The notes beneath the pieces were generated by a model. It searched no databases. It had not been told where the DNA came from and was given only the letters and a program-made list of their open reading frames with translations. Made by a program: the position numbers and the translations under genes. This document shows, one piece after another, positions 5,055-9,337 of a stretch of 64,000 nt of DNA (the stretch's first letter is position 1; every line of letters begins with the position of its first letter). The DNA is from Mycobacterium saskatchewanense (GTDB lineage Bacteria > Actinomycetota > Actinomycetes > Mycobacteriales > Mycobacteriaceae). Location: NCBI RefSeq assembly GCF_010729105.1, contig NZ_AP022573.1, positions 5,944,917-6,008,916 of the forward strand, read 5' to 3'.

Positions 5055-7853
<2,799 letters not shown>

Positions 7854-7908: not shown

Positions 7909-7969
7909 CGCGACACATAAACGTCTGCGACGACACGCTGGAAAGCAACGCAGCCGTTTATGTCTCGTG
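7909..7969. repeat. 61-bp palindromic element, left copy
   Basis: A 14-base arm CGCGACACATAAAC (7909-7922) faces an inverted arm starting GTTTATGTCTCG (7956-7967), separated by exactly 33 bases. The spacer starts GTCTGCGACG and can pair further inside (CTGCG with CGCAG). A second copy of identical length and layout sits at 8849-8909, on the other side of the DUF559 gene. Function unknown; a mobile-element end or transcribed hairpin are both possible. Confidence 0.75.
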
Positions 7970-8002
7970 GATCCCTGCGCCGGGTACCGACGTCTTTCGG
8001 TT

Positions 8003-8860
8003 GTGGGCGACGTGTTCAAAGGCAGCGAGGCCGTGCGGCAGGGCCGGCTTACCCCGTATCGGCTGCGGACCGAGTTCCGGGCAGTCCTTCCCGACGTGTA
8101 TCTGCCGAGTCACGCCGCGCCGTCGCTGCGCGCCCGTTCGACGGCCGCGTGGCTGTGGTCGGGCCGTCGCGGCGTGCTGGCCGGACTCGCCGCCGCGGCG
8201 CTGCACGGCTCGTGCTGGGTCGACGACGACGAGCCCGTCGAGTTGATTTGGCGAAACCAGCACGCGCCGGTCGGCGTGCTGACCCGCAACCTGCGGGTGG
8301 GGCCCGACGAGGTCACCCGTGTCTCTGGGTTACCCGTGACCACCCTGGTGCGGACGGCTTACGACCTGGCCAGGAGGGCGCCGATCGGCGAGGCGGTGGC
8401 GCGGCTCGACGCGCTGATGCGGGCCACCCCGTTCCGCGTGGACGACGTGCTGTGGCTGGCGGAGCGGTACCCGGGTGCGCGTGGCCTGCGGCGGCTGCGC
8501 GCGGCGCTGCCGCTCGTCGATCCCGGCGCCGCGTCGCCCCGGGAGACCTGGCTGCGTCTTCTGCTGGTCGACGCCGGGTTGCCGGCCCCGGCCACGCAAA
8601 TACCGATCAACGAGGGCTGGCGAACGGTTGGCGTGCTGGACATGGGCTGGGAGCGGTACGGGGTGGCCGCCGAATACGACGGCGACCACCACCGCACCAG
8701 TCGCCGCCAGTACGCCCGGGACCAGTGGCGATCGCGCAAGCTGGAGGAACTCGGCTGGATCGTCATCCGGGTGATCGCCGAGGACAGGCCGGAGGACGTC
8801 GTGCGTCGCGTGCGCGCCGCGCTGATCCACCGCGGGTGCCCCGAGCTTCGCGAGATATAA
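8003..8860 (+). CDS. DUF559 protein (AbiEi-like N-terminus, Vsr-like endonuclease C-terminus)
   Basis: A 285-residue protein of the large mycobacterial DUF559 family. The N-terminal part (GSEAVRQGRLTPYRLRTEF, DVYLPS) looks like the winged-helix region seen in AbiEi-type antitoxins. The C-terminal part, from about residue 220, has the Vsr/PD-(D/E)xK-like layout VAAEYDGDHH, WRSRKLEELGWIVIRV and IAED. Nuclease activity is inferred, not shown. I prefer the GTG at 8003 (VGDVFKGSEA), which resembles starts of related proteins; the frame is open back to 7871 through the left palindromic element. The TAA stop lies inside the right copy of that element. It interrupts an otherwise conserved core gene order. 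Confidence 0.75.
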   Translation: MGDVFKGSEAVRQGRLTPYRLRTEFRAVLPDVYLPSHAAPSLRARSTAAWLWSGRRGVLAGLAAAALHGSCWVDDDEPVELIWRNQHAPVGVLTRNLRVGPDEVTRVSGLPVTTLVRTAYDLARRAPIGEAVARLDALMRATPFRVDDVLWLAERYPGARGLRRLRAALPLVDPGAASPRETWLRLLLVDAGLPAPATQIPINEGWRTVGVLDMGWERYGVAAEYDGDHHRTSRRQYARDQWRSRKLEELGWIVIRVIAEDRPEDVVRRVRAALIHRGCPELREI

Positions 8861-8909
8861 GTGTCTGCGACGCCCGTCGGCGAGTCGTATGTGTGGTTTA
8901 TGTGTCGCG
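8849..8909. repeat. 61-bp palindromic element, right copy
   Basis: The arms CGCGAGATATAAGT (8849-8862) and GTTTATGTGTCGCG (8896-8909) are separated by 33 bases, exactly as in the left copy at 7909-7969. The first 24 bases of the two copies match at 20 positions by eye, including GTCTGCGACG at the start of the spacer; the rest of the spacers differ. The stop codon of the DUF559 gene is built into the left arm, so gene and element end together. Confidence 0.75.
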
Positions 8910-8929: not shown

Positions 8930-9337
8930 CTATGAGCCCGTCGGCACCAGGCGCAGCGAGATCGAGTTGATGCAGTAGCGCTGATCGGTGGGCGTCGGGT
9001 AACCCTCACCCTCGAACACGTGCCCCAGGTGGCTGTGGCAGTTGGCGCACAGCACCTCGACCCGACGCATGCCCATCGAGTCGTCGGGGCGCAGGATGAC
9101 CGCGTCGGAGTCCGCCGGGTCGAAGAACGACGGCCAGCCGCAGTGCGACTCGAACTTCTCTGTGCTGCGGAACAATTCGGCCCCGCAGGCGCGGCACTGG
9201 TAGACGCCTTCGGTCTTGGTGTCGGTGTACTCACCGGTGAAGGGCCGCTCGGTGCCGGCCTGGCGCAGCACGTGAAACTCTTCGGGCGTGAGCTTCTGGC
9301 GCCACTCGGCATCGGTCAGCTGCAGCTTCGGATTCAT
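8930..9337 (-). CDS. msrB: Peptide-methionine (R)-S-oxide reductase MsrB
   Basis: Repairs methionine-R-sulfoxide in oxidised proteins using thioredoxin-derived electrons in the cytosol. The 135-residue product has the full MsrB layout: structural zinc cysteines in CRAC (Cys48, Cys51) and CANC (Cys97, Cys100), CGWPSFF with Cys66, and the catalytic Cys122 in RYCINS. Length is normal for a single-domain MsrB. Its start overlaps the 3' end of aftC by four bases, so it is probably translated from the same message. Confidence 0.97.
   Translation of the reverse strand: MNPKLQLTDAEWRQKLTPEEFHVLRQAGTERPFTGEYTDTKTEGVYQCRACGAELFRSTEKFESHCGWPSFFDPADSDAVILRPDDSMGMRRVEVLCANCHSHLGHVFEGEGYPTPTDQRYCINSISLRLVPTGS

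Follow-up and report, generated by a model that had tools for sequence, protein, structure and literature searches.

The known partnerships between an enzyme and a dispersed palindrome, such as REP/RAYT and IS200/IS605, use HUH single-strand transposases. Homing endonuclease genes and the mycobacterial 13E12 repeats resemble the locus described here in having a solitary nuclease gene of selfish look, but their nuclease fold differs from that of the present family, and the presumed recognition site here is itself a dispersed palindrome. The Vsr, DUF559 and MTES_1575 nucleases are like this family in that their nuclease region is C-terminal and holds an invariant set of E, D and E residues, but they are not known to have a dispersed palindrome partner. 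We know of no palindrome-dispersing system with a related enzyme.

According to two accounts (PMC3116915, PMC3733652), REP/RAYT systems carry palindromes beside or around one enzyme gene with further copies elsewhere, each enzyme has its own flavour of palindrome, and the enzyme is largely inherited vertically; the present system is alike in these respects. It differs from REP/RAYT as outlined there in its enzyme (putatively AbiEi-like plus PD-(D/E)XK-type instead of an HUH tyrosine transposase), in palindrome length (~57-61 bp), in copy number (tens, not hundreds), and in the absence of the conserved GTAG end tag from family A, the palindrome family of our locus (other palindrome families were viewed by eye only). 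Because no HUH transposase was found in 50 members of the protein family and family A has no GTAG tag, the nuclease-palindrome system is not a REP/RAYT member. TIRYTs and TIRtrons (PMC3733652) also have an enzyme gene flanked by repeats that may be dispersed in the genome as well, but they combine a tyrosine transposase with terminal inverted repeats, whereas direct and inverted orders both occur here.

PMC7319586 describes AbiEi as binding two inverted repeats of 23 bp with 3 bp between them, and Rv2827c as binding pairs of inverted repeats with a 13-bp gap. The present unit resembles AbiE type IV toxin-antitoxin systems, as presented there, in its AbiEi-like region and in geometry (23-bp repeats with a 13-bp gap, compared with 24+13+24 here), and by analogy the repeat geometry of AbiEi may be linked to the half-sites of family A. 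It differs in having no partner toxin gene within the unit, in its joined nuclease domain and in its genome-wide palindromes: AbiEi lies beside a DUF1814 toxin gene in the AbiE layout, whereas the neighbours here are an Rv2675c-like gene and msrB. Stem-loop repeat families are known from M. tuberculosis, e.g. Myt-1, 72 bp with 75 members (PMC2267715). Among titles and abstract openings of the open-access literature, nothing was found that joins this gene family to palindromes, and the partnership of enzyme and repeat looks previously undescribed.

The unit in the window

The window, a stretch of 64,000 nucleotides from Mycobacterium saskatchewanense, contains the following features around the unit.

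7102..7853, plus strand: conserved left neighbour, presumably Rv2675c-like
7909..7969, plus strand: left (5′) 61-bp palindrome of family A, arms 7909-7922 and 7956-7969, 33-base spacer
8000..8860, plus strand: putative AbiEi-like/PD-(D/E)XK-type nuclease gene, 286 aa, by profile matches and residue conservation
8543..8680, plus strand: presumed nuclease active-site region, codons E182 (8543), D214 (8639), E225 (8672) and D227 (8678)
8849..8909, minus strand: right (3′) 61-bp palindrome of family A, opposite orientation, decayed, holding the stop codon of the gene (8858-8860)
8930..9337, minus strand: conserved right neighbour, presumably msrB

The labels of the two neighbours follow an earlier note on this DNA. 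The two genes are convergent, and the nuclease unit fills the gap between them. The nuclease gene is solitary between its palindromes; its GTG start was our choice, the reading frame being open from 7871. The left copy consists of the arm CGCGACACATAAAC, 33 bases opening with GTCTGCGACG, and the arm GTTTATGTCTCGTG; the right copy, 940 bp away, consists of CGCGAGATATAAGT, 33 bases again opening with GTCTGCGACG, and GTTTATGTGTCGCG. The element pattern matched twice in the window, at the places given in the earlier note, against a mean of 0 in 100 shuffles, and the TAA stop codon is part of the right palindrome, as that note had also described. Its claim of identical architecture held for the layout of 14-base arms around 33 bases and needs qualification otherwise. 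The right copy is decayed, with 4 of 14 arm positions unpaired and a DNA fold z of -0.70, compared with -2.84 for the left copy. Furthermore, the element is directional: the central GACACGCCG, whose equivalent at 7932-7940 in the left copy reads GACACGCTG, sets the direction, and the two copies face opposite ways though both open with GTCTGCGACG.

The best Pfam match of the window protein was REase_MTES_1575 (E 8e-8; 32.6 bits, curated cut-off 38.2), followed by DUF559 (E 0.007; 16.6 bits, curated cut-off 20.6), so that the name DUF559 given to the gene earlier is a loose one, as both matches lie under their cut-offs. Four of the eight DUF559 matches in the window's genome are above the cut-off, that of the window protein not among them, and the stretches fetched around the seven others (L051-L055, L057 and L058) yielded no family A element. 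PADLOC AbiEi profiles matched within residues 18-164 (best E 4e-9). A Pfam scan of 50 members (E up to 0.01) returned MTES_1575 in 50, DUF559 in 42, AbiEi_1 in 6, DUF5768 in 1, and no transposase family. Residues E182, D214 and E225 are invariant in 50 rows and D227 is conserved in at least 90%; from knowledge of the fold, we take these four to be the PD-(D/E)XK active-site residues. Judged by sequence, the window protein putatively combines an AbiEi-like part with a nuclease of PD-(D/E)XK type. Matches to the sequences of solved structures were all weak (best E 0.0016, lactate dehydrogenase, residues 37-134) and were set aside.

Dispersal of family A and bracketing of one gene family

With up to 3 mismatches allowed, the 24-base half of the element matched 20 times in the window's genome (G000; a single contig of 6.0 Mb), compared with 0 for the reversed pattern, and with up to 1 mismatch the 14-base arm matched 51 times, compared with 2 for the reversed control. 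At least 31 distinct elements were read, a lower bound because only part of the places with a 14-base arm match were read; 8 further rows were shifted readings of the same sites. The spacer measured exactly 33 bases in 31 of 31, though 25-41 were allowed. Only the two window copies were found beside such a nuclease gene. The family A pattern (up to 3 mismatches) occurred in 35 of 198 Mycobacterium genomes, and reversed-pattern controls in none of the 198.

All 30 distinct neighbouring family A pairs lying 0.5-2 kb apart in the fetched loci enclose a homologue of the window gene, with a start-to-start spacing of 930-933 bp in 27 pairs and of 940, 958 and 965 bp in the others. Many of these loci had been chosen with the gene as query; the fair subset comprises the 9 pairs reached from the palindrome alone, all of which enclose a homologue (L001, L061, L063, L067, L073, L076, L083, L084 and L087). 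Six further pairs, spaced 120-193 bp, are gene-free tandem copies, and one pair 9.4 kb apart encloses no such gene. Solo palindromes in tandem with spacings of 120-193 bp were seen at L049, L012, L016, L017 and L071.

The earlier note had named wide occurrence of the element without a DUF559 gene as an argument against a link between the two. Taken literally, this is what the 31 elements of G000 show, yet 30 of 30 spaced pairs bracket a relative, and solo copies do not by themselves break the link because REP-type systems show the same.

The layout of a nuclease gene between matched palindromes, which the note had compared to REP-associated elements, extends to many loci and palindrome families. 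Matching sequences at both gene ends (score of at least 40) were detected in 72 of 103 related Mycobacterium loci. They comprise 43 of 63 loci in a first set (after removal of 6 duplicate loci), 24 in direct and 19 in inverted order, and 29 of 40 more distant genes (42-57% identity) in a second set, 15 direct and 14 inverted. In most of the 43 loci the matching stretch ends at the palindrome, and ends can be near-identical (L122, 62/62; L149, 96%; L163, 97%; L124, 97%). In a shuffle control, 0 of 515 reached a score of 40 (maximum 36); among 40 other genes of the window 1 passed, at exactly 40, and the nuclease gene itself passed. The 31 loci below the matched-pair threshold include many with a 5′ palindrome only. 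Across the order, 249 genomes were searched and 136 had matches, 29 of them in the same genus; bracketing was counted in Mycobacterium loci. A search of phages returned no relative, and six plasmid records had distant matches (identities 32-40%).

Palindrome families mostly follow nuclease branches

Protein identity and palindrome similarity were correlated over 72 loci (Mantel r 0.74, 0/999 permutations) and again over 73 rows (r 0.71, 0/999), after addition of the palindrome-reached units L083, L084 and L087 and omission of two rows with stops; both sets include orthologues at shared loci, which overstates the strength of the correlation. Below 55% protein identity, 20 of 1696 pairs had a palindrome family in common. 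Family A also occurs on a second nuclease branch (L067/L091, L083, L084 and L087), 54-58% identical to the window protein, with L083, L084 and L087 81-84% identical to L091, and the pairing is therefore not one to one. Overall, palindromes mostly follow nuclease branches.

Of the 23 genomes with a close homologue (~68% identity or more), 18 contained family A, compared with 17 of the 175 without; the threshold was set after seeing the data, and such genome-level associations ignore shared ancestry. Family C had 22 copies in 11 of 198 genomes. Eight of the 22 sit 34-49 bp ahead of the stretch of a family gene covered by the match. Of the 11 genomes, 9 contain a gene with 70% identity or more to the C-type gene (16 such genomes among the matches listed). 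The pattern was built from 6 of those 8 gene-adjoining copies, which makes the test partly circular; once the 6 are set aside, a family gene adjoins 2 of the 16 copies that are left, and a gene of at least 70% identity is present in 3 of 5 genomes. The presence/absence test for family C thus gives weak support to the pairing of palindrome and nuclease. Other palindrome families with TATCCACAG-like stretches near the 5′ end of the nuclease gene were seen at L361, L371, L378, L380, L381 and L386-L388.

A proposed nuclease-palindrome module

At slightly better than even confidence, we favour a module of nuclease and palindrome that would operate in the manner of REP/RAYT systems but with an unrelated enzyme. 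In such a module, the AbiEi-like part would be a DNA-binding module, and the protein would recognise its own palindrome as a bipartite inverted site, with half-sites of ~24 bp around the 13-base conserved centre. The nuclease part would cut or nick at the palindrome, and subsequent repair or joining would let the palindrome be copied, rarely, to new places. New copies would be best tolerated at the 3′ ends of genes, where a stop codon can come from the TAA of the arm. In this scheme the bracketed gene would act as a rarely moving, vertically inherited source, and solo palindromes would be its non-autonomous copies. The observations themselves comprise the bracketing, the rigid spacing, the general match between palindrome and nuclease branch, the dispersal, the gap seen both empty and with alternative occupants, and the conserved acidic residues. 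We infer binding of the palindrome by the protein, its cleavage, and copying driven by cleavage. More tentatively, and at somewhat less than an even chance, such nuclease-driven, HUH-independent palindromic elements may be genus-wide, each branch recognising and copying its own ~60-bp palindrome, and the diversity of the nuclease paralogues may account for much of the intergenic palindromic repeat content of mycobacteria.

A restriction-type nuclease partnered by a dispersed palindrome of its own would, if true, be a second, independent enzyme-palindrome solution. It would account for many of the palindromes scattered between genes in mycobacteria, and would provide a function for a large nuclease family that has been little studied and whose homologues (E up to 1e-20) are found in 197 of the 198 Mycobacterium genomes searched. 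Dozens of proteins, each paired with a predicted cognate DNA, offer testable pairs.

Occupancy and history of sites

Comparison of empty and filled sites, which the earlier note had proposed, found nearly empty, solo and filled gaps, and no clean target-site duplication in close species. The gap between Rv2675c and msrB was nearly empty in six loci (2 bp in L185, 6 in L190, 15 in L188, 15 in L192, 20 in L191 and 37 in L178), and the intergenic bases of such gaps do not align. It held a solo palindrome of family A (L175), family B (L187), family C (L180, L182 and L183) or other kinds (L184 and L189), and elsewhere a unit in truncated form (L173) or a complete one, on one strand or the other. 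In L186 (G030) the gap measures 734 bp with no nuclease match; it may take other inserts. In a tree of 37 proteins, the same-strand units at this gap formed one clade (15 rows, 97/94), as did the opposite-strand units (8 rows, 84/93). One entry plus an inversion and two entries are both possible, followed by vertical descent. Of the minimal mobile unit suggested earlier, the dispersed palindrome stands, but the unit itself rarely moves, with one clade per orientation and vertical descent at this gap.

The site of a solo element of the window's genome (G000:5850818) held, in other genomes, family A palindromes, other palindromes, or a single base between aligned flanks (G263 and G365). No clean target-site duplication was found at this site (30 loci, G000 included) or in three close species, M. 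interjectum, M. terramassiliense and Mycobacterium sp. 852002-50816, which are 93.5-95.5% identical over the fetched loci. At L210, L213, L219 and L223, 10-14 bases of the 3′ end of the right-hand gene recur beyond the palindrome at the 5850818 junction; possibly the gene end was duplicated or replaced by the insertion, or this is a long target duplication. In L211, L212, L215, L216, L218 and L220-L222 the gap holds another, shorter palindromic repeat, GTGGCGATCGCGAGCGCGGCG...GGGTCGCCAC, which was not noticed beside the nuclease genes of this analysis, and in L227 a further type, GCAGACGCAAA...TTTGCGTCTGC.

In the three close species, 44 elements outside the unit were compared (9 groups in all three species, 4 in two, and 8 alone at first). 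Thirty-six of the 44 lie at a site common to at least two species, and copying of the palindrome is therefore slow. L286 and the 5′ palindrome of the unit in its own genome differ at 2 of 61 positions, compared with 8 for the next best of the 44 elements, and L286 is on this comparison likely a recent copy of that palindrome. L286 was rejected as one side of an empty/filled pair: the sisters hold ~1.07 kb there without nuclease similarity, and L286 therefore represents a replacement or a deletion. L256 and L273 were rejected as single-genome insertions, a diverged palindrome being present in both sisters (L256) or in one (L273). L269 carries family A where its sisters L291 and L292 (~94-95% identical species) carry a different palindrome, and the end of the left-hand gene changes along with the palindrome family. 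By eye, the palindrome of the sisters resembles one beside the nuclease gene L052 of the window's genome.

These sites bear on whether the unit is a homing-type selfish gene, whose nuclease cuts lone palindromes so that repair copies the gene in or beside them and duplicates the palindrome, solo copies being targets or scars. Such a gene would account for near-identical ends, often in direct repeat (24 direct and 19 inverted of 43), for lone palindromes and palindrome-gene-palindrome units at the same gap in different species, and for the replacement of one family by another at L269. We nevertheless consider it unlikely: the units at Rv2675c-msrB descend vertically, one clade per orientation, none of the sites compared was occupied by a solo palindrome in one species and by the corresponding filled form in a near sister, and simple duplication does not predict inverted pairs.

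Gene context of the palindromes

The palindromes could also be operators through which the AbiEi-like domain autoregulates its own gene, with scattered copies serving as a regulon or as decoys and the nuclease serving defence or toxicity. AbiEi proteins autoregulate via inverted repeats (PMC7319586), the window protein matches the PADLOC AbiEi profiles, and many family genes have a palindrome a short way upstream, sometimes as the sole one. However, 72 of 103 loci have a second copy at the 3′ gene end, and the same gap holds different palindrome families in different species. Among 29 elements of the window's genome, the window's two included, 9 were in convergent gaps compared with 3 in divergent ones by a crude gene call, which also argues against operators, and we regard this role as improbable.

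Structure of the palindrome

Family A consists of two inverted half-sites of ~24 bases around a 13-base centre (24+13+24); its consensus starts with CGCGAC and finishes with CTCGCG. A 61-row alignment puts the unpaired centre GACACGCCG among its most conserved parts; the rows were picked with a consensus that includes the centre. Covariation of the arms was modest: the score was reached by 1 of 500 shuffles, pairs changed on both sides were matched by 84 of 500, and further pair types by 320 of 500. A hairpin score of at least 13 in a flank was found for 20 of 40 family genes compared with 0 of 41 window genes; these counts are lower bounds on both sides, as the filter discards early mismatches (first four pairs), including the window gene's own palindrome. 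An Rfam search of six loci returned no family at threshold and two sub-threshold matches, both away from the element.

The palindromes could instead belong to the host as bidirectional terminators or RNA hairpins, spread by other means, with the nuclease genes as passengers. Strong hairpins in many flanks and palindromes of several families in one convergent gap would fit this view. It nevertheless seems very improbable: one gene family is bracketed by 30 of 30 spaced pairs, sequence conservation extends to the unpaired centre (in rows picked with a consensus that includes it), the palindromes mostly follow the nuclease branch, and the Rfam threshold was reached by no family in the six loci.

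L267 and L268 (G438:C10:42685 and 78134) lie 35 kb apart and carry identical palindromes whose flanks match in inverted order, an inverted duplication or an assembly effect. Over 185 family A elements, gathered from all loci by consensus score, arm pairing was high, but positions 6 and 56 were almost never paired. The mismatch was C-C in 129 and C-T in 46 (175 of 185 elements), in a set that leans toward it because the consensus has C at both positions. With a pattern allowing C or G at these positions, most copies showed the same mismatch by eye (uncounted). Vsr-type nucleases act at mismatches, and a kept C-C or C-T mismatch in an otherwise well-paired arm is of interest in this respect.
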